A DNA stretch of 36,990 nt from a virus: positions 1-36,990 of IMG/VR virus record IMGVR_UViG_3300020213_000066; one strand, written 5' to 3'. The notes beneath the pieces are model-generated. The model had not been told where the DNA came from and made no database searches. It worked only from the letters and a program-made list of their open reading frames with translations. A program made the position numbers and the translations under genes. Shown here one piece after another: positions 2,190 through 36,291 of the stretch; the first letter of the stretch is position 1; each line of letters begins with the position of its first letter.

Positions 2190-3452
2190 ATGAGCATCCG
2201 TTCGCGCCTTGGCGCCGCCTGGCGCGGATTGACGATCAAGGATGCCGGCACGATTGACCTCACACCCTATGGGTCGCTGGCGCCGTTCATCGAGGTCTAT
2301 GGTTCGCGGGCGTCGAAGTCAGGGCAGACGGTCAACTGGTCGAGCGCGCTGCAGGTTGCAACGGTGCTTGCTTGTGCGCGGGTGCTGGCCGACGGCGTTG
2401 CGCAGGTTCCGCTGAAGCTGATGCGCGAGCGGGCCGACGGCCGCGGCCACGATCTCGCAAAGGAGCATCCGCTCTATTACGTGATGCACCGGCGGCCGAA
2501 CCCGTGGCAGACCTCGTTCCGGTTTCGCGAGACGCTGATGCTGCACCTCGTGCTGTGCGGCAACTTCTTCGCTTTCAAGAACAGGGTCGGCAATCAGGTT
2601 CGCGAGCTGATCCCGATCGAGCCGGGCAACGTCGAGGTCAAGCAGAACCGCGATCTGTCGCTGTCTTACTTCGTGCGAAACGAAGCCGGAGAGCGCAAGG
2701 AATTCCCAGGCGAAGCCATCCTGCATCTGCGCGGCCCGTCGTGGAATTCCTGGATGGGCATGGAGGCGGTGAAACTGGCGCGCGAGGCGATCGGCCTGTC
2801 GATGGCGATCGAGGCGGATCAGGCGGGGCTCTATAAGAACGGGCTGCGCACTAGCGGCACATATTCGGTCGAAGGCACGTTGACACCTCCGCAGTACGCC
2901 GATTTGCGAAAGTTCATCAAGGAGCACCAGTCCGCCGGCGTCGGCGAGCCGTTGGTGCTCGATCGTGCCGCCAAGTATCTGCAGGAAACCATGAAGGGTG
3001 TTGACGCGCAGACTTTGGAGTCGCGCAAGTTTCAGGTTGAGGACACCTGCCGGCCGTTCCGGGTGTGGCCGATCATGGTGGGACACTCCGGCGACAGCGC
3101 ACCGACGTTTGCCAGCGCCGAGCAATTCTTCGAGGCACACAAGATTCACAGTCTGGGCCCCTGGTACGAACGTCTGCAGGAAGACTTCGACGAGCAGTTG
3201 CTCGACCAAGGCACCGAGGCCGATCTGCATTTCGAGTTTGTGCAGCAGGGTCTGGTGAAGGGCGCCTTCGAGACCCGCACCAATGCCTACGCCCGCGCGC
3301 TTGGTGCTGGCGGGTCGCCGGCATGGATGACGCCGAACGAAGTCCGCGAGCTCGAAGACATGAACCCGATCGAGGGTGGTGACGAATTGCCGAAGCCGCC
3401 GCCTGCGGCAACGGCCGCTAAGCCGGACCCGACGAAGGAACCGACGCAATGA
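2190..3452 (+). CDS. Portal protein (HK97 family)
   Basis: 420 aa. It forms the dodecameric ring at the unique capsid vertex through which DNA passes and to which the tail joins. Recognisable family features are the N-terminal VNWSSALQVATVLACARVLADGVAQVPL block (described by its positions 46-73), the YYVMHRRPNPWQTSFRFRE segment near 91-109 and the HLRGPSWNSWMGM segment. The C-terminus is proline-rich and probably disordered. The ATG follows a GAG-rich ribosome-binding site. The stop overlaps the next start as ATGA, placing it in the packaging-head operon. I see no unusual features. Confidence 0.94.
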   Translation: MSIRSRLGAAWRGLTIKDAGTIDLTPYGSLAPFIEVYGSRASKSGQTVNWSSALQVATVLACARVLADGVAQVPLKLMRERADGRGHDLAKEHPLYYVMHRRPNPWQTSFRFRETLMLHLVLCGNFFAFKNRVGNQVRELIPIEPGNVEVKQNRDLSLSYFVRNEAGERKEFPGEAILHLRGPSWNSWMGMEAVKLAREAIGLSMAIEADQAGLYKNGLRTSGTYSVEGTLTPPQYADLRKFIKEHQSAGVGEPLVLDRAAKYLQETMKGVDAQTLESRKFQVEDTCRPFRVWPIMVGHSGDSAPTFASAEQFFEAHKIHSLGPWYERLQEDFDEQLLDQGTEADLHFEFVQQGLVKGAFETRTNAYARALGAGGSPAWMTPNEVRELEDMNPIEGGDELPKPPPAATAAKPDPTKEPTQ

Positions 3453-10453: not shown

Positions 10454-11680
10454 ATGCCCTATCAGTCCCAGAGCAATGGTTTGGTCGCGTTCAAGGTTCA
10501 GAGCGCCAAGGGCACGACGTCCTCGGGCGGCTCCGGCTTCGTGCTGCGCACCGCCGGCGGGCCTGGCGGCAGGCTCACCAAGAACGTCTATGAGTCGAAC
10601 GAGGTGCGCCGCGATCTGATGCGCTCGCGCGGCCGGCATGGTCTGCGCAAGGCGTCAGGCTCCTACACCTGCGAGGTGTCGCTCGATAATTGCGATGCCT
10701 TCTATGAGGCGTTTTTTCGCGGCACATGGGAAACGGCATTAACCGTCACCGAGGCGACTGCATCGCTGACGTCGATCACCACGACCACCAGCACGATTGT
10801 TGCGGCTGCCGGATCGTGGATCACCGCGGGCCTGCGCGTCGGGGATATTGTCCGGCTGACCGGCCACTCCACTGCCGCCAACAACTCGCGCAACCTTCGC
10901 ATCACGGGACTGACGGCCTCGACCATCACGGTGGCCGAGACACTGACCGCGGACGCGGGTGCGGATACCGCGTTCACCATCATCCGGCCAGGCCAGAAAC
11001 TCATCAACCCGGCGGCGGGCTCCGCGGTGAAGTCGTTTTTCACCATCGAAGAGTATGATGGCGATCTGGACCTCACGGAAATCTTCTCCGACTGCATCAT
11101 CACGTCGTTGAAGTTCTCGATGAGCTCCAGCGGCTTCCTGATGTGCGACATCGCGTGGGTCTCGACCGGCCTGTTCACCACGGCATCGGCTGGCTCGGCT
11201 CCGACGTTTACCTCGCCGACCGAAAGCGTGGGCCTGCCGCTGTCGTGCGCCGAAGCCACGCTGCGCTATTCCTCGACCGACTTTGTCGATCTCACGTCCT
11301 GGGATCTGACGATGGAGATTGGCGGCGTGGCGCCGGAGGTGGTGGGATCGGTAATCTCGCCGGATGTGTTCACCGGCCAGATGATGGTCAGCATGAACTT
11401 CAGTATGCTCCGCACCGACTACGGCAAGATGACGGACTTCCTGGCCGAGACTGCGCTGACCTTCTCCATCATGGCGCAGGAAAACGAGACGGCACCCGCA
11501 GACTTCCTCGGGCTGTTCGTCCCGAACTTCACGCTGGGCGGTGTCGAGAAGTCGGCACTGTCGAAGGAAGCAGGACCGCGCACGCAATCGATCAGCGTTC
11601 CAGCCGGCCTCGTGGGAAAAGATACGACCGGCGGTGCCTGGGATGCAACGATGGTTAAGTTGCAGTGTTCGAATACTTGA
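10454..11680 (+). CDS. Major tail tube protein
   Basis: 408 aa, with GGAG upstream of the ATG. The N-terminal pattern (YQSQSNGLVAFKVQSAKGT, residues 3-21) and the CDAFYEAFFRGTW segment are those of siphovirus tube proteins built of stacked beta-barrels. Residues 105-180 (Thr/Ala-rich with GDIVRLTGHSTAANNSRNLR) look like an inserted beta-sandwich domain between two halves of the barrel, which explains the length above the usual 150-250 aa. A perfect 11-bp hairpin starts 27 bases downstream. The terminator protein lies upstream and the chaperones downstream, as in other siphoviruses. Confidence 0.85.
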   Translation: MPYQSQSNGLVAFKVQSAKGTTSSGGSGFVLRTAGGPGGRLTKNVYESNEVRRDLMRSRGRHGLRKASGSYTCEVSLDNCDAFYEAFFRGTWETALTVTEATASLTSITTTTSTIVAAAGSWITAGLRVGDIVRLTGHSTAANNSRNLRITGLTASTITVAETLTADAGADTAFTIIRPGQKLINPAAGSAVKSFFTIEEYDGDLDLTEIFSDCIITSLKFSMSSSGFLMCDIAWVSTGLFTTASAGSAPTFTSPTESVGLPLSCAEATLRYSSTDFVDLTSWDLTMEIGGVAPEVVGSVISPDVFTGQMMVSMNFSMLRTDYGKMTDFLAETALTFSIMAQENETAPADFLGLFVPNFTLGGVEKSALSKEAGPRTQSISVPAGLVGKDTTGGAWDATMVKLQCSNT

Positions 11681-11746: not shown

Positions 11747-12433
11747 ATGAGAGAGCGCGAGGTTCTTGCTCACATCAAAACGAGTGGCCGTCGTCATTAC
11801 GTCTATGTACTGCGTAGGCCCGATGGCCGGGCGTTCTATGTCGGTGTTGGCACCGGACGTCGGTTGCTCGATCATGCGATCTTCGCGCGCCGTCAGAATC
11901 TGGATAGCCACAAACTTCGTGTGATCCGCAAGCTGTGGAGATTGGAACAAGAGATCGACTACACCGTCCACGCATTCTTCGATCAGCGCGGGGATGCCGG
12001 CCGCGCCGAAGCCGCGCTGATTGCGGAGATTGGTCGCCACGATTTACGCGCGGGTCCGCTAACAAATGTTACGGCGGGCGGTGAGGGTGCGCCGAGTCCT
12101 TCGGATGAAGTGCTGTCCGCGCGTAGCATCAAGCTTCGCGCAGCGTGGGCAAAGCGCGACAAGGTTGCTGCGATGGCCCACCTTAATACGCCGGAAGTGC
12201 GCGCTAAAACCGCCGCTACGCGAACTGGACTAAAGCGTGGACCGTATCAATGGACGAAAAATCCAGGGGCAAGCCCGCCCGAACAGCGTGCGGCAGTATC
12301 AGCCAGACTGAAGGCCGATCCTGTTTCGCGGCGTCCTGGCGTGGCGACACGTCGCATCCGATCCGGAATGGCAGCCGATGAACACCGAGCCGAACGATGG
12401 CGCGTTCCGCCTTTACGGACTGCACGTCCATAA
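11747..12433 (+). CDS. GIY-YIG homing endonuclease, C-terminally replaced
   Basis: 228 aa as read. The N-terminal GIY-YIG domain is clear: YVYVL (18-22), FYVGVGTGRRLLDHA (30-44) with the catalytic Tyr and Arg, a Glu in AEAALIAEIG, and the LTNVTAGGEG block near 105-114 typical of free-standing homing enzymes. NUMOD3-like basic motifs (TPEVRAKTAATRTG, PPEQRAAVSARLKAD) follow. The last about 23 residues are not native: from 12364 on they read the duplicated 183-bp segment in a foreign frame. So the DNA-binding C-terminus is lost; a possible remnant lies at 12676-12780. The domain would nick DNA to spread its own gene. Activity after truncation is uncertain. Confidence 0.85.
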   Translation: MREREVLAHIKTSGRRHYVYVLRRPDGRAFYVGVGTGRRLLDHAIFARRQNLDSHKLRVIRKLWRLEQEIDYTVHAFFDQRGDAGRAEAALIAEIGRHDLRAGPLTNVTAGGEGAPSPSDEVLSARSIKLRAAWAKRDKVAAMAHLNTPEVRAKTAATRTGLKRGPYQWTKNPGASPPEQRAAVSARLKADPVSRRPGVATRRIRSGMAADEHRAERWRVPPLRTARP

Positions 12434-12546
12434 CATCAGCCATAACATCAGCCATTCTTGGCTTGAGATTCACTACGCCGCACTGAATGAAGAAGGGCAA
12501 CTGATCCTTCCGTCAGGGGATAATTTTGACGATTGGGCCTTTAACG
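12364..12546 (+). repeat. 183-bp duplicated segment, copy 1 (inverted relative to 28604-28786)
   Basis: Positions 12364-12546 match the reverse complement of 28604-28786 over 183 bases with only two differences, both C/T: CGTCCATAAC versus CGTCTATAAC, and TACGCCGCA versus TACGTCGCA. Identity ends abruptly on both sides. The segment carries most of a DUF551-like gene (NTEPNDGAFRLYGLH) and an internal 12-base tandem repeat, CATAACATCAGC twice. Here it is cut off at its 3' end and interrupts the endonuclease locus. Copy 2 carries the complete 3' end of the gene, so it is the likely donor. Confidence 0.95.
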
Positions 12547-12588
12547 GGCAAAAATATCAGCCGCGAAGGTGGGCAAGCCGATCAATAG

Positions 12589-12780
12589 TTGGATGCGGAC
12601 GCCTGCAGCGAAGCTTCGTTTCAGTCGCGGTGTGCATCCTCGCGCCCGCCCCATCGAAATGACGGCCGGCCCTTTGCCTGCAAGGCCGATGCAGTTGATG
12701 TGCTTGGTGTGTCGCTGTCCACCATTGATTACTGGCTCAAGCGCAGCCGCCACGGCGCTCAATTTCTTCCCAAACCCTAA
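12589..12780 (+). pseudogene. Relict HTH tail, possibly of the homing endonuclease
   Basis: In this frame the end reads CKADAVDVLGVSLSTIDYWLKR, an HTH of the type found at the C-terminus of phage homing endonucleases (A-x-x-LGVS-x-x-T-V-x-YWL). The upstream residues to 12670 look non-coding, and an in-frame stop lies between 12547 and 12589. The GIY-YIG gene upstream lacks such a domain. I therefore read this as the detached 3' end of that gene, separated by the 183-bp insertion and a further deletion. The HTH is seen; the link is inference. Confidence 0.45.
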
Positions 12781-12790
12781 GAGGCTAATC

Positions 12791-13030
12791 ATGTCACAGA
12801 TCGAAACCGCCGTGCGTGACACGGCGGCGGCGCTCCATGCCGCCATCAAGTCCGCGGTCGATGCGGGCTACCGCATCGGCTGGCCGTCATCGCCGGATGG
12901 GCTGTTGTCCATCGCGGTGAGCGAGACGGCGAAGGTGAAGCCCGCGGCGTATGTCGCGCCGGAGGCGAAACCTGCGCCCGCGCCGTCACGGTTTGCCCGC
13001 AATGTAAAGCCCGAAACGACCGGGCTCTAA
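12791..13030 (+). CDS. Small tail-module protein, unknown
   Basis: 79 aa from ATG 12791, following AGAGG with 6 bases spacing. An upstream in-frame ATG at 12569 would run through relict sequence and is rejected. The start is helical (IETAVRDTAAALHAAIKSAVDAGYRIGWPSSPDGL), the rest Pro/Ala-rich and basic. It may be an accessory tail protein, since it lies in the slot between the tube and chaperone genes. No family recognised. Confidence 0.68.
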   Translation: MSQIETAVRDTAAALHAAIKSAVDAGYRIGWPSSPDGLLSIAVSETAKVKPAAYVAPEAKPAPAPSRFARNVKPETTGL

Positions 13031-13074: not shown

Positions 13075-13106
13075 GGACGGGCGACATCTGCCGGTGTCGC
13101 CCGTCC
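13075..13106 (+). other. Perfect 12-bp stem-loop before the tail chaperone gene
   Basis: GGACGGGCGACA (13075-13086) and TGTCGCCCGTCC (13095-13106) pair perfectly around the loop TCTGCCGG. A smaller hairpin, CCTCGC/GCGAGG at 13038-13053 with TTT after it, lies just upstream. The large one is 21 bases before the chaperone ATG and could affect translation initiation or partly terminate. No U-tract follows it. Confidence 0.68.
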
Positions 13107-13127
13107 GCTTAACCGGCAGAGGAAAAC

Positions 13128-13595
13128 ATGGACAACACGGCAAACAACGCAGCGTCTCCCGCTGTGGTCAATCTCGCGGGCGCATTGCCCCACCAATCCG
13201 CAGAACTCTCAATCGTGTTTCAAGGCACCAGCAAGCCGACCGGATGGGTGATTACGATTGCAGGGCCAGGGCATCCCAAAACCATCGCCTACAACAACGA
13301 GATGGAACGCGAGCGGCTGCACCGCGATGCGCTGATCGAGCAGTCCCGCGCCAACGGAAAGAAGTACAAGTCCGACGAACTCACGCCGGAGGAAAGCCGC
13401 CGCAAGTTTGTCGAAGGCTTGACGGCCCGCATCGTCACATGGACGCCGGTCGATTTCGGCTGGGGCGTCGTGGAGTTTTCCGAGAAGACTGGCGTCGATA
13501 CGCTGCTGCGTCCCGAGCTTGGCTTCGCCGTCGGCCAGATCGTCGACTACCTGGTGGGCGAGCGGGCTTTTATGAAGGACGCCGCGAAGACCTGA
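13128..13595 (+). CDS. Tail assembly chaperone, short form (G-like)
   Basis: 155 aa; AGAGGAAAAC precedes the ATG. It corresponds in position and size to lambda gpG: the chaperone that coats the tape measure and recruits tube subunits before being discarded. Motifs are helical and charged (NEMERERLHRDALIEQSRANGKK), with WTPVDFGWGVVEFSEKTGVDTLLR in the middle. The overlapping -1 frame continues as coding sequence to 13984, giving the GT fusion. Between this gene and the tape measure there is no other gene, which matches the usual order. Confidence 0.85.
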   Translation: MDNTANNAASPAVVNLAGALPHQSAELSIVFQGTSKPTGWVITIAGPGHPKTIAYNNEMERERLHRDALIEQSRANGKKYKSDELTPEESRRKFVEGLTARIVTWTPVDFGWGVVEFSEKTGVDTLLRPELGFAVGQIVDYLVGERAFMKDAAKT

Positions 13596-13984
13596 AGGCG
13601 TTTGCGGCGTCTCAATTCAAACTATCAGCCCGCGAAAATGACGGCCAATCCGCCCGCGAATTGCTGGAGGGTCTGATCGAGCGATCGATCCTGGCCGGCC
13701 GGCCGGACGCCCATCGCGCCGAATGGGAGGCCGAGCTTTACGGCAATCCCTGTCCCGCCGCGATGGCCTACCTCTGGCGCATCTTCAACCGTTTGCGCCG
13801 GCGCGTGGGTGGCAACGGCTTCGGGGCCAACCCGATCTCGTGGCCGGACCTCGATGCCTTCGTTCGTTACTCACGGATCAATCTTGCTCCGTGGGAGATC
13901 GAAGTGATCGAAGACCTCGACGATCTCTTTCTGATCGCGATGGCACCCAAGCCATCCAGTCAGCCGCCGAAAGGAGAGTCCTGA
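13128..13984 (+). CDS. Tail assembly chaperone, frameshifted GT fusion
   Basis: The -1 frame after about 13571 is open to 13984 and reads YEGRREDLKAFAAS, then ELLEGLIERSILAG and WPDLDAFVRYSRINLAPWEIEVIEDLDDLFLIAM, clearly protein-like. It has no plausible start codon of its own near its beginning. If ribosomes slip back one base at GCT TTT A, the product is about 285 aa (148 + 137). Such -1 GT fusions are conserved in siphoviruses and set the ratio of short to long chaperone. The slip site is my best candidate, not proven. Confidence 0.7.
13566..13572 (+). promoter_or_regulatory. Candidate -1 ribosomal frameshift site
   Basis: GCTTTTA: zero-frame codons are GCT TTT ATG, and the Phe tRNA on TTT can re-pair with TTT one base upstream, after which TAT GAA GGA continues the downstream frame. 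It is not a perfect X-XXY-YYZ heptamer, because GCT to GGC re-pairing is poor. It lies 22 bases before the zero-frame stop (13593-13595), a normal distance. An alternative slip at GTG GGC about 15 bases earlier is possible. Confidence 0.5.
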
Positions 13985-25725: not shown

Positions 25726-26075
25726 TGGCAAATTTGGACTATCAGACGATAGCTCTCGTCGTCACCCTTCTCGGCATGGCCACGGGTGGCCTCTGGAAGC
25801 TGACCCGGATCGAAACCGAACTGCGCGCCTGCATCAATTCGTCCAGGGATGATGTCGAGGAAAAGCAAACCGAGCACTCCCGAGAATTTGGCGAGACGAT
25901 CTTAGCCCTGCGCCAGCACATCACGACATTCCAGCTTGAGGTCGCCAACAACTACGTTCGCCGGGACGGCTTCTACAAGGTCCGCGATGAACTGGCCTCC
26001 GACATCAAAAGCCTGGGCGATGAACTCAAGGCCACGCTGGTGCGCGTGGAAAGCAAGATCGACAGCAAGACATAA
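25725..26075 (+). CDS. Membrane-anchored coiled-coil protein, possible i-spanin analogue
   Basis: 116 aa; ATG 25725 shares a base with the previous stop. One N-terminal hydrophobic segment (YQTIALVVTLLGMATGGLW, residues 6-24) is followed by a long charged coiled coil to the end (VRRDGFYKVRDELASDIKSLGDEL). This N-in, periplasmic-coil layout is that of inner-membrane spanins, which join the membranes at the end of lysis; no o-spanin lipoprotein was found alongside. A terminator follows. The role is inferred from topology and place. Confidence 0.65.
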   Translation: MANLDYQTIALVVTLLGMATGGLWKLTRIETELRACINSSRDDVEEKQTEHSREFGETILALRQHITTFQLEVANNYVRRDGFYKVRDELASDIKSLGDELKATLVRVESKIDSKT

Positions 26076-26107
26076 GCGTAGCCGTGCGTGACTGTTCCTC
26101 CCAGACT

Positions 26108-26141
26108 GCCCCGGCACCCGCAGAGGGTCCGGGGCTTTTTT
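26108..26141 (+). terminator. Intrinsic terminator at the end of the lysis cassette
   Basis: GCCCCGG (26108-26114) and CCGGGGC (26129-26135) form a 7-bp stem followed by TTTTTTCG. It ends the long rightward structural/lysis transcript, just before the convergent tRNA and leftward operon. Confidence 0.88.
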
Positions 26142-26176
26142 CGTTTCAAGCCGTCTGCACTAGTATGCGCGCACGA

Positions 26177-26251
26177 TGGCAGGGACGGCAGGACTCGAAC
26201 CTGCAACCCTCAGCGTCAAAGGCTGATGCTCTACCATTGAGCTACGTCCCT
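26177..26251 (-). tRNA. tRNA-Gln (anticodon TTG)
   Basis: On the minus strand all arms fold: acceptor AGGGACG/CGTCCCT (7 perfect pairs), D-stem GCTC/GAGC, anticodon stem TCAGC/GCTGA with loop CTTTGAC (anticodon TTG), T-arm GCAGG-TTCGAGT-CCTGC, then discriminator G and an encoded CCA. It would decode CAA (and possibly CAG by wobble), a codon that is less used in a GC-rich host. The gene lies just after the lysis terminator and is transcribed toward it, at the end of the leftward operon. No attachment site or integrase is seen beside it. Confidence 0.93.
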
Positions 26252-27263: not shown

Positions 27264-27755
27264 TTATGCGTAAGTTTCGAGCGGCGTCCCGCTCTTGAGG
27301 TAGAGCGGGTGTTTCGGTGCGCCAGTCTTCGTCTTGCCGAGGCAGAACACGGCGGGCCTATGGCTTCGCAGCAGCCCCTTGACCACGCTCGCCCGATTGA
27401 GCGCCATTCCGTGAGCGCCCCAGGCGCAGATAGCAACGTCGCAGCGTCCGATGGCGCGCTCGATAGCGTCATCATTGTTCGGGCCGACAGCATCGGCAAC
27501 GTAGGGAAGCTCGTCCGGGTCCGTTGCGCGGAAGGCGAATAAATTGACGACCTCCATGCTGCCGTAGCCAAGGCCGACCAGGAGACGAACGCAGGAGCGA
27601 ATGGTTGCGTCATCCTGCCGGGCGTCAGCGGTTGACGGATTGAGCATCACCAGAAGAGCGCGCGGCTTTCCGTGATCCCACGTCCGGCGCAGCATGTAGC
27701 GGTACGTCTCGCACTCCGAAAGCACCGCATCATTTTCTAGATAGTGGTTCGGCAT
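27264..27755 (-). CDS. DUF1643 family protein
   Basis: 163 aa from ATG 27755, which follows GAGTGAG; a longer in-frame start at 27812 would overlap the upstream gene by 53 bases and is rejected. Characteristic DUF1643 blocks: ALLVMLNPSTADARQDDATI (about 33-52), VVNLFAFRATDPDEL, a central CDVAICAWGAHG strand and the last APKHPLYLKSGTPLE. The biochemical role of the family is not known; relatives are common in phages and bacteria. The start is 4 bases from the upstream stop. Confidence 0.9.
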   Translation of the reverse strand: MPNHYLENDAVLSECETYRYMLRRTWDHGKPRALLVMLNPSTADARQDDATIRSCVRLLVGLGYGSMEVVNLFAFRATDPDELPYVADAVGPNNDDAIERAIGRCDVAICAWGAHGMALNRASVVKGLLRSHRPAVFCLGKTKTGAPKHPLYLKSGTPLETYA

Positions 27756-27759
27756 CTGC

Positions 27760-28152
27760 TCACTCTTTTTGCTGCGTCTGCGAAGGTGCGAGCGTGCGCC
27801 CAGACTCACCAAGACCGCGAGCTTTTAGTGCCGCGACGCAGAGGCAAAGCACCGGGGTAACTGCCGCCACCGATTTGATTTCTTCGTTTGGGGCATTGAG
27901 TTGAAAATTGACCAACTCTGCACCCGCGCAATGTCCGTCGCCGCCGTGGATCGACCACGCATCCCATTTAGCCGGAACGAGCGCGAAGGCCGCATCGAAG
28001 GACGCGGTGTAGGCAGGAAGCGTTTCAGACGGATCGTATTGTTCGAACGTCGAGATGTGGCGCTTGCGACCGTGGGCGACCTCAAAAATCAGTTCATCGA
28101 GATCACGGTCAGGTCCGTCGGCATTCTCAAGCCGTTCGATTAGGTCAAGCAT
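27760..28152 (-). CDS. Phage ABA sandwich domain protein
   Basis: 130 aa from ATG 28152 (an N-terminal extension to 28293 would overlap the next gene). The layout LIERLENADGPDRDLDELIFEVA, then LPAYTASFDAAFALVP and WDAWSIHGG matches the phage ABA-sandwich group (L-E-x-A-x-GP-x-x-x-LD ... YT-x-S-x-D-A-A-x-x-LVP). Members are small and of unknown role, carried by many alphaproteobacterial phages. The C-terminus VTPVLCLCVAALKARG is helical. Overlaps the upstream Cys-rich gene by 8 bases. Confidence 0.85.
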   Translation of the reverse strand: MLDLIERLENADGPDRDLDELIFEVAHGRKRHISTFEQYDPSETLPAYTASFDAAFALVPAKWDAWSIHGGDGHCAGAELVNFQLNAPNEEIKSVAAVTPVLCLCVAALKARGLGESGRTLAPSQTQQKE

Positions 28153-28371: not shown

Positions 28372-28548
28372 CTATTTCCCTTCCGCATGTGGCTGTTCAG
28401 CCAATTTTTGGCGAAGCAGTTCGATCTTGTCGGCGGCAAGTCGCATAGCGGTTTGCTGCACGCTCTCTCCGCCATAGTCCGGCTTCGACCATTCTCGTAG
28501 GACGACCACAAGCCCGCGTTCTGCAATGTAGCGTTCCGTCGCACTCAT
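28372..28548 (-). CDS. Small helical protein
   Basis: 58 aa, ATG 28548 to TAG 28372-28374. Its ATG overlaps the DUF551-like gene's stop (ATGA), and its own stop is directly followed by the next ATG after 2 bases. The sequence is gene-like: SATERYIAERGLVVVLREW, then VQQTAMRLAADKIELLRQKLAEQ, a helical segment. It is shorter than a 60-residue cutoff, so automated callers using such a limit would miss it. Function unknown. Confidence 0.72.
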   Translation of the reverse strand: MSATERYIAERGLVVVLREWSKPDYGGESVQQTAMRLAADKIELLRQKLAEQPHAEGK

Positions 28549-28772
28549 TGGCTGTCACCGGACTTCAACGGATCGCGCGGCGCAGGAGCCCAGCACTCAA
28601 AATCGTTAAAGGCCCAATCGTCAAAATTATCCCCTGACGGAAGGATCAGTTGCCCTTCTTCATTCAGTGCGACGTAGTGAATCTCAAGCCAAGAATGGCT
28701 GATGTTATGGCTGATGTTATAGACGTGCAGTCCGTAAAGGCGGAACGCGCCATCGTTCGGCTCGGTGTTCAT
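28545..28772 (-). CDS. DUF551-like small phage protein (source of the duplicated segment)
   Basis: 75 aa from ATG 28772. The read-through upstream includes EWQPM before NTEPNDG, matching the W-x-P-M-x-T-x-P-x-DG start of DUF551-like proteins; the domain ends with WLEIHYVALNEEGQLILPSGDNFDDWAFN and CWAPAP. The coding region 28604-28772 belongs to the 183-bp repeat; the 3' end (28545-28603) exists only here. No start codon is visible before the EWQP block, because the upstream sequence is antisense to a nuclease fragment, so its true 5' end may have been cut off. Function of the family unknown. Confidence 0.72.
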   Translation of the reverse strand: MNTEPNDGAFRLYGLHVYNISHNISHSWLEIHYVALNEEGQLILPSGDNFDDWAFNDFECWAPAPRDPLKSGDSQ

Positions 28773-28786
28773 CGGCTGCCATTCCG
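28604..28786 (-). repeat. 183-bp duplicated segment, copy 2
   Basis: Inverted partner of 12364-12546, identical over 183 bases but for two C/T differences. On the minus strand it runs from CGGAATGG to TTTAACG. On its 5' side it abuts a GIY-YIG-superfamily (Mug113/T5orf172-like) fragment at 28787, and on its 3' side the gene continues normally to its stop. No target-site duplication or inverted terminal repeats are visible at either copy, so it is not a classic transposon. Confidence 0.95.
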
Positions 28787-28991
28787 CTACTTTGATGCAC
28801 TGCAGACTGGCGCGCCCCGTCGCCTGGAAATGTATGCCACGTTTCGCGGAACGCGCGCCGTCGAACAATATCTGCATGATCGCTTTAAGACGCACCGAAC
28901 ATCGGGCGAGTGGTTCAAATACCGAGAGCCTATCAAATCCTTTGTTGCCGCCCTTCATGAATTTGAATGGATGCGGAGGCTTTGCTCGTGA
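28787..28991 (+). pseudogene. C-terminal piece of a Mug113/T5orf172-type GIY-YIG nuclease
   Basis: In the frame ending at 28991 the sequence reads YFDALQTGAPRRLEMYATF, then EQYLHDRFKTHRTSGEWFKY. This is the second half of the T5orf172/Mug113 fold (LQTG-x-P-x-x-LE...LH-x-x-F...GEWF). The N-terminal GIY-YIG half is missing: upstream of 28787 the frame runs into the antisense strand of the DUF551-like gene. So it is a broken nuclease gene whose 5' part was lost at the repeat boundary. The pattern is strong. Confidence 0.8.
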
Positions 28992-29462: not shown

Positions 29463-29696
29463 TCAGAACTCCCGTCCTGTGTCGCGGTCGATCGGACGCG
29501 CGAAGGGTTTCATCGGCAGTTTGATCCCGCTCGCCCTGGTGCCGGTGATGGGCCGGAATTGCACCTTGCGGATTCCGCGGGCGTTGTCTCGGACGCGGTT
29601 TGACTTCGCGATCACCGGCTTGTCGTAGCCGTTGGTCTTGATGAGCAGCGCGACCGTGACGAGATAGCCCGCGAACAGGATTTGCTCTGCGCTCAT
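29463..29696 (-). CDS. Small membrane-anchored protein
   Basis: 77 aa from ATG 29696, overlapping the upstream stop (ATGA). One hydrophobic segment near residues 5-19 (ILFAGYLVTVALLIK) is followed by a basic cytoplasmic or periplasmic tail, KSNRVRDNARGIRKVQF. No family recognised. Membrane-anchored small proteins in early phage operons often deal with host functions, but that is not shown here. Confidence 0.7.
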   Translation of the reverse strand: MSAEQILFAGYLVTVALLIKTNGYDKPVIAKSNRVRDNARGIRKVQFRPITGTRASGIKLPMKPFARPIDRDTGREF

Positions 29697-29899
29697 TCGC
29701 AGCCCTCGCCCTGTCCGCAATGGATGCAGCGAGCATGTCCGTCATGCGGGCCGTATTGATGCTGCCCGGTGTGCGATCTCACACAATGCTCGAACACCTC
29801 CGGCCAGTCGGCATAGACTTCGCTGGCATGATCGAAGGCATCGGGATCGTCACCCGCTCGTGTCGAGACGGAAGCGATCTTGAGAAGGGGTTCGCTCAT
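29693..29899 (-). CDS. Small protein with a C-terminal Cys cluster
   Basis: 68 aa from ATG 29899, chosen because it gives a clean ATGA overlap with the upstream stop; an alternative start at 29908 adds MAG. The end reads HARCIHCGQGEGCE, with C-x-x-C and a further Cys, and several His (HTGQHQYGPHDGHARC) nearby, so a small zinc-binding site is likely. Function unknown. Confidence 0.7.
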   Translation of the reverse strand: MSEPLLKIASVSTRAGDDPDAFDHASEVYADWPEVFEHCVRSHTGQHQYGPHDGHARCIHCGQGEGCE

Positions 29900-32630: not shown

Positions 32631-32668
32631 CACGGACGGAGCCGATGTCGAAACCGGCTCCGTCCGTG
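32631..32668 (+). other. Perfect 14-bp inverted repeat between divergent genes
   Basis: CACGGACGGAGCCG (32631-32644) and CGGCTCCGTCCGTG (32655-32668) are exact reverse complements around a 10-base loop. The surrounding spacer 32578-32749 has no supported gene and must hold the start regions of the genes on both sides. No U-tract follows. Candidates: a terminator with unusual tail, a protein-binding cruciform, or a folded RNA leader. Confidence 0.75.
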
Positions 32669-35067: not shown

Positions 35068-35228
35068 TGACCGCGCTGCTCGATCCCAGGATATTCAACT
35101 ACGTCATCATGGGGCTGTACGTCGCCAACTCAGCGCGATGGGCGCTGCATGGATCGTGGGCTGACGTGTCGTATTGGCTCTGCGCCTTCGGCATCACCGC
35201 AACCGTCACATGGGGGTATGGACGATGA
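35064..35228 (+). CDS. Two-TM small membrane protein
   Basis: 54 aa; starts ATG-ATG at 35064, overlapping the previous stop, and ends in an ATGA overlap. Two hydrophobic segments (FNYVIMGLYVANSARWAL and YWLCAFGITATVTWGY) with a short loop WADVS. I recall similar small membrane proteins in early clusters of alphaproteobacterial phages, of unknown role. It is shorter than the usual gene-call cutoff, but overlap, hydrophobic layout and coupling all support it. Confidence 0.72.
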   Translation: MMTALLDPRIFNYVIMGLYVANSARWALHGSWADVSYWLCAFGITATVTWGYGR

Positions 35229-35314
35229 CCGCCTCCCATCTGCTCTACACCCTCGGCGGACTCTTCCTGGCTCATGCTGCTGTGTTCGCAGCCATTCTGA
35301 AATGGGGGGAGTGA
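35225..35314 (+). CDS. Single-TM mini-protein
   Basis: 29 aa: ATG 35225 overlaps the upstream stop, and the hydrophobic core (LLYTLGGLFLAHAAVFAAIL) fits one membrane helix. The GGGGGAG inside its end provides the ribosome-binding site for the next gene. Its role may be only translational or a small membrane accessory to the 35064 protein. Confidence 0.55.
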   Translation: MTASHLLYTLGGLFLAHAAVFAAILKWGE

Positions 35315-35316
35315 GG

Positions 35317-36291
35317 ATGGCCGCGAACTCCAAGATCGAATGGACCGACGCGACGTGGAATCCGATCCGCGCCCGCAATCTCAAAACCGGCAAGGTCGGC
35401 TGGCATTGCGAGCACGTCACGACCGGCTGTGAGTTCTGCTACAGCGAGGGGTTTAACAAGCGGCTCGGCACCGCCCTGCCGTTCAAACCCGGACATCGCA
35501 AGGACGTCGAAATCTTCCTCGACGAAACCATGCTGACAGCGCCACTGCGCTGGAAAAAGCCGCGCATGATATTCGTCTGCTCGATGACCGATGCCTTCGC
35601 GTCGTTCGTCACCGACGAAATGCTCGACAAGATGTTCGCCGTCATGGCGCTGTGTCCGCAGCATACGTTTCAGGTGCTGACGAAACGTGCGGAGCGGATA
35701 CGGCGCTATTTAGATCGCGACCGCGCACGTTTCGATATTGATGCCGCAGTGATCGCAATACGAGAGGCTGGACATATCGGTCTAGTCCATCAGCACGATA
35801 GCTGCTTACGGCTCCTGCAGTGTTGGCCCCTCCCCAACGTCTGGCTCGGCGTCTCAACCGAACGCCAGCAGGAAGCCGACGAACGCATCCCACATCTGTT
35901 GCAGACACCGGCTGCGGTGAGATTCATTTCAGCGGAGCCGCTGTTGGGGCCGATTGATCTGATGATGCTCGGCAAAGGTGGCGACAAAGTCACCGACGCG
36001 CTGCAGGGCTGCATCGGTACTTCAGTTGGCGACGGTGAATACGACGGCGCGCGGCCGTGCGCGAAGCTCGACTGGGTGATTGTTGGCGGCGAAAGCGGGC
36101 CCGGAGCCCGCCGCATGGAGGCGCGCTGGGTACGCGACATCCACAGTCAATGTGCTGACGCATCGGTCCCATTCTTTTTCAAACAATGGGGTGCGCATGA
36201 TCCTGACACATTCGACGTCGTCGGCAAGAAAGCCGCAGGCCGCCTTCTCGACGGCAAGGAACACAACGCCATGCCGCAGGTGTCGGCATGA
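35317..36291 (+). CDS. DUF5131 (phage Gp37/Gp68 family) protein
   Basis: 324 aa from ATG 35317 with GGGGGAG upstream; the longer frame from 35149 overlaps two short genes and is rejected. N-terminus IEWTDATWNPIRARNL and a Cys cluster C31-x6-C38-x2-C41 (HCEHVTTGCEFCYSE) are diagnostic. Further blocks: FVCSMTDAFASFV, VLTKRAERIRRYL, NVWLGVSTE, FISAEPLLGPID and WVIVGGESGPGARRM. The Cys set resembles the spacing of an iron-sulfur or radical-SAM-like site. The family's reaction is not established; some consider it DNA- or tRNA-related. It overlaps the next gene by 4 bases. Confidence 0.92.
   Translation: MAANSKIEWTDATWNPIRARNLKTGKVGWHCEHVTTGCEFCYSEGFNKRLGTALPFKPGHRKDVEIFLDETMLTAPLRWKKPRMIFVCSMTDAFASFVTDEMLDKMFAVMALCPQHTFQVLTKRAERIRRYLDRDRARFDIDAAVIAIREAGHIGLVHQHDSCLRLLQCWPLPNVWLGVSTERQQEADERIPHLLQTPAAVRFISAEPLLGPIDLMMLGKGGDKVTDALQGCIGTSVGDGEYDGARPCAKLDWVIVGGESGPGARRMEARWVRDIHSQCADASVPFFFKQWGAHDPDTFDVVGKKAAGRLLDGKEHNAMPQVSA

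Follow-up and report, generated by a model that had tools for sequence, protein, structure and literature searches.

How did the same 183 bp come to stand twice in one phage genome, in opposite orientations and about 16 kb apart? The window, by which we mean the whole stretch of 36,990 bases that makes up this virus record, contains a single repeat of at least 50 bp, and it is this pair. An initial annotation had described it as an inverted, nearly identical copy with two C/T changes, sharp ends and a recent origin, and each of these points is borne out. The copies agree at 181 of 183 positions (self-comparison E = 2.5e-90), with a longest identical run of 68 bp; copy 1 has C at 12429 and 12478 where copy 2, read on the same strand, has T. 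In the frame of the gene to which the repeat belongs in copy 2, here called the orphan gene, both differences alter an amino acid. Identity ends abruptly on both sides, the flanks matching at 9 of 30 and 7 of 30 positions, which is the level expected by chance. The copying is recent on an evolutionary scale, that is, relative to the distance between this phage and its relatives. The features discussed below are listed in Table 1.

Table 1. Features at and around the two copies of the repeat, with positions in the window.
Feature	Position	Strand	Evidence or remark
Tail tube gene, to the left of the endonuclease locus	10454..11680	+	Phage_tube_2, E 2e-17; 74% identical in L004
5' part of GIY-YIG homing-endonuclease gene (nuclease domain, basic linker)	11747..12363	+	Profile matches
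Repeat copy 1, insert inside the homing-endonuclease gene	12364..12546	+	181/183 to the reverse complement of 28604-28786
Endonuclease continuation past the insert (NUMOD3-like repeat region)	12547..12664	+	Frame of the 5' part retained
Candidate C-terminal DNA-binding (helix-turn-helix) piece of the endonuclease	12664..12780 (within 12655-12785)	+	Other frame
Tail assembly gene (chaperone region), right neighbour	13128..13595	+	Homologues in L004, L078 and L061
Repeat copy 2, within the orphan gene (WQPM.T.P.DG protein)	28604..28786	-	Runs on to stop at 28545
Orphan gene remnant, 3' end complete, 5' end replaced at 28786/28787	28545..28786	-	79 aa in frame
5'-truncated MUG113-type (GIY-YIG superfamily) gene, in a row of minus-strand genes	28787..28991	+	Starts at the repeat boundary

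Dispersed near-identical repeats are absent from 10 complete relatives of the same terminase lineage, which hold tandem arrays or diverged pairs at approximately 76-90% identity, among them dispersed ones in Xanthomonas phage CP1; a scan of about 1.5 Mb of other DNA returned overlapping or tandem pairs only. The pair is therefore neither a product of chance nor a usual feature of these phages. In CP1 itself (L110), positions 3119-3304 and 26056-26241 form a 186-bp dispersed inverted repeat at 77% identity; related pieces lie near 16.1 kb, and the pair consists of diverged paralogous pieces. The base composition of the repeat is also distinctive. Its G+C content is 52%, against 61% for the window, which places it in the lowest 1% of 183-bp stretches, and third-position G+C is 56-62% in the orphan gene, the MUG113 gene and the endonuclease gene, against 88% in the terminase gene. 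For these reasons all three genes look like accessory acquisitions.

The plus strand carries genes in the usual order: terminase, portal, protease, capsid, connector, tail tube, tail chaperone and, where the tape measure gene is expected, a long gene. The terminase shares 79% identity with that of Mesorhizobium phage vB_MseS-P1, and similar proteins occur in prophages of Hyphomicrobiales and Rhodobacterales; the host is therefore likely to be an alphaproteobacterium. A search of bacterial genomes with the tail tube protein gave no match. In L004 and L061 a chaperone-region gene follows approximately 100 bp after the tail tube gene, while in L078 these two genes are separated by a homologue of the small gene at 12791-13030; in this window the Phage_TAC_18 match sits in the frame 13094-13984, which overlaps the tail assembly gene. 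Since the endonuclease gene is missing at this site from all three relatives, it is an added gene, and the 183 bp are an insertion within that added gene.

That copy 1 sits within a homing-endonuclease locus of the tail module, as first proposed, is upheld. The 5' part of the gene encodes a GIY-YIG nuclease domain with the motif YVYVLRRPDGRAFYVGVG. It matches PHROG 5356 (E 4e-8), PHROG 314, a homing endonuclease family (E 0.002), and Pfam LEM-3_GIY-YIG (E 2.9e-5; 24.5 bits, slightly below the curated cut-off of 27), and over the N-terminal 44% it is 45% identical to a homing endonuclease of Rhizobium phage RHph_X2_25; homing endonucleases of Burkholderia phages are also akin to it. The insert places a stop codon in this frame at 12431-12433. 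When the flanks of copy 1 are joined in silico, the frame stays open across the insertion site, and the 39 residues past the insert are similar to the repeat region in each of two related endonucleases, over a short match that outscored 498 of 500 and 499 of 500 shuffled sequences and is strongest in the frame that continues the gene. The NUMOD3 profile itself has no match in the region after the insert. Further on, a candidate helix-turn-helix piece matches HTH_23 (E 2e-4) and I-TevI_DNA-bd (E 0.0095), both under the curated cut-offs. Because this piece lies in a different frame, the gene appears to have a second lesion, a frameshift near 12660, and thus probably carries at least two.

Copy 2 belongs to a gene that is itself damaged. 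The orphan frame of 79 residues (EWQPMNTEPNDG...FECWAPAPRDP) has no Pfam match up to E 10, a longer 137-residue frame has none up to E 0.01, and the gene matches no NCBIfam or PHROGs family. We have accordingly dropped its assignment to DUF551 (PF04448), a label that reflects a resemblance of motifs only. Within the repeat, 12430-12453 holds the 12-bp unit ATAACATCAGCC in tandem, which encodes NISHNISH in the orphan protein; the tandem is present in both copies and is therefore older than the duplication.

At 28786/28787 the orphan gene meets the MUG113 gene head to head, each without its own 5' end. The MUG113 profile (PF13455) is matched at E 1e-6 and 29.7 bits, above the gathering cut-off of 22.3, over positions 16-62 of 73. 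The first 15 positions of the model are missing, while intact relatives carry that N-terminal part, so the gene is a truncated member of its family. Homology to MUG113 starts about 4-13 bp from the boundary, and most alignments with phage relatives start 1-4 residues past it. Open frames cross the joint on both strands, and around it we recognised no natural start codon for the orphan gene. The view of copy 2 as the source gene is thus right for the 3' end, which is complete, and fails at the 5' end, which is a recombination joint with a truncated gene: copy 2 is a mosaic remnant and not an intact donor. Nearby, a DUF1643 gene (27264-27812, minus strand, E 7e-44) has relatives at 68-75% identity in other viral contigs; the DUF1643-bearing L005-L010 share that gene but not copy 2, and L010 also shares the gene at 29463-29720.

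Copy 2 runs on to its own stop codon, while copy 1 is a partial orphan gene inside another gene, which marks copy 1 as the inserted piece and suggests that it is the younger locus. We found no target-site duplication or terminal inverted repeats at the ends of the 183 bp and no transposase within them, in agreement with the initial annotation, and a transposon or insertion sequence is ruled out on these grounds. Neither joint has a shared base that could represent junction or priming microhomology; the sequence GCATC occurs near both left flanks, out of register, and we take it as chance. The lack of target duplication, terminal inverted repeat and shared base speaks for end joining or template switching and against transposition or homing.

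We consider it probable that the repeat is a scar left by an illegitimate insertion of recent date, in which 183 bp of an accessory gene served to patch a break in the endonuclease gene. That gene, free-standing and of the GIY-YIG homing type, would first have taken up its place between the genes for tail tube and tail chaperone. A later break in it would have been mended with a fragment from the other side of the genome, the donor being copy 2, its sister molecule, or a DNA molecule with the same broken 5' end. The fragment would have been joined in the opposite orientation, with neither microhomology nor target duplication, and at this same boundary of the repeat the truncated MUG113 gene would have taken the place of the 5' end of copy 2. 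The insert and its stop codon may have been tolerated because a selfish endonuclease is dispensable once resident; together with the second, frameshifting lesion, this suggests that the gene is a tolerant, decaying site.

We searched for other carriers of these sequences. Phage records contained no DNA nearly identical to the locus, and viral contigs yielded no relatives of the repeat, the orphan protein or the endonuclease with peptide seeds, nor with exact or degenerate DNA patterns. A tblastn search of phages and plasmids for single-copy relatives gave only non-significant matches (E 2-5). No single-copy relative was found in 398 genomes from the order of the host of the related Mesorhizobium prophage; four weak partial matches occurred there (E 0.002-0.01), two inside frames of 564-585 residues and two with internal stops. 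As no related sequence has the repeat in single copy, donor and direction are read from gene anatomy.

The base at which the repeat begins (12364/28786) is a joint in both loci, with MUG113 homology starting within a few bases of it, and this raises an alternative: a piece of the orphan gene whose end was broken at a fixed base, supplied for instance by a co-infecting phage, could have been joined independently to the endonuclease gene and to MUG113, in which case copy 2 was not the template. That copying from copy 2 should have ended at random exactly on this boundary would be a coincidence. Against this, the same fragment must have been captured twice, copy 2 extends further at its other end, and no source was found in phages, plasmids, viral collections or the 398 genomes. 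We regard a common third source as rather unlikely; copy 2 is the simplest source of copy 1, and the data do not separate it from a fragment captured twice. A more specific proposal, that the GIY-YIG-type endonucleases themselves gave rise to both joints, a cut in the orphan gene having freed an end that was joined once to MUG113 and once into the homing-endonuclease gene, seems to us quite improbable. If true, the locus would bear witness to mosaic joints made by homing endonucleases at loci remote from their own.

An error of library or assembly, with one junction arising from a chimeric read or a wrong path in the assembly graph, also has to be weighed, because the record is a virus contig known here from its sequence and a search found neither the repeat nor the 3' part of the endonuclease gene in an independent viral contig. 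The two differences and the longest identical run of only 68 bp make an assembly mix-up unlikely, however, and the endonuclease gene is continuous and in frame on either side of the insert; a chimera would moreover leave the cut of MUG113 at the same base unexplained. Given this anatomy, we judge an artefact unlikely. A middle segment assembled in the wrong orientation is ruled out by gene order, since it would break the head-to-tail order and split the endonuclease gene. The orientation given keeps the order terminase, portal, capsid, tail tube, chaperone and tape measure of the relatives, and this head-to-tail synteny supports it. Homologous recombination between near-identical inverted repeats of 183 bp is feasible in principle, so an inversion of the 16 kb between the copies is possible in principle, in a form that would separate the halves of the endonuclease gene. 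Such recombination could also make the repeats a functional switch that flips the 16-kb tail-lysis segment. Yet one repeat sits in a broken gene and the other in the remnant of a gene, we saw no recombinase site or reciprocal arrangement of genes, a flip would place head and tail genes on opposite strands, and neither isomer occurs in any relative. Such a switch is highly improbable.

Templated insertions, or filler DNA, arise at double-strand breaks that are mended by end joining. The insertion that we propose resembles them in being a short copy of a distant sequence, which in such events may have either orientation, joined without target duplication, but differs in that no priming microhomology is visible. 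Our literature search returned no paper on templated insertions in phages.

Mosaicism through illegitimate or relaxed homologous exchange, extending to small gene fragments, is well known in phages (PMC3945230). The present locus is like the illegitimate recombination of tailed phages (PMC3945230, PMC2993671) in its sharp intragenic joints, its sub-gene fragment and its lack of transposon hallmarks; unlike in that mosaicism, this genome holds two copies of the fragment, inverted relative to each other and hardly altered. With free-standing phage homing endonucleases of the GIY-YIG (Seg-like) kind and the truncated relics of such genes (PMC2993671) it shares a lone gene between structural genes that is missing in relatives and decaying. 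The difference is that decay here includes a captured fragment of another phage gene, and homing by this endonuclease is putative. That homing endonucleases might cause mosaic joints at distant loci was raised in 2010, when no experimental evidence was available (PMC2993671); the present locus is compatible with such joints and does not show them. If more than chance has placed the shared break point beside two GIY-YIG-type genes, the case would be relevant to the question whether selfish endonucleases are a driver of phage mosaicism beyond their own locus.

The repeat seems to have arisen by a commonplace accident of illegitimate recombination; what is unusual is that both copies start where the same gene is broken off, next to GIY-YIG nuclease genes. 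The process is a known one, and the locus is a fresh example of it: an instructive but ordinary recombination scar, and a clean, young case of how phage genomes gain small gene pieces out of place. With a donor-like copy and the recipient site in one genome, nearly unchanged, the structure of the joints can be read directly.

Two further observations concern the right-hand part of the window. A 38-bp imperfect palindrome lies at 32631-32668, close to early genes, and the plus-strand gene at 35149-36291 encodes a radical-SAM-like protein that is 42% identical to a product of vB_MseS-P1 annotated as spore photoproduct lyase.
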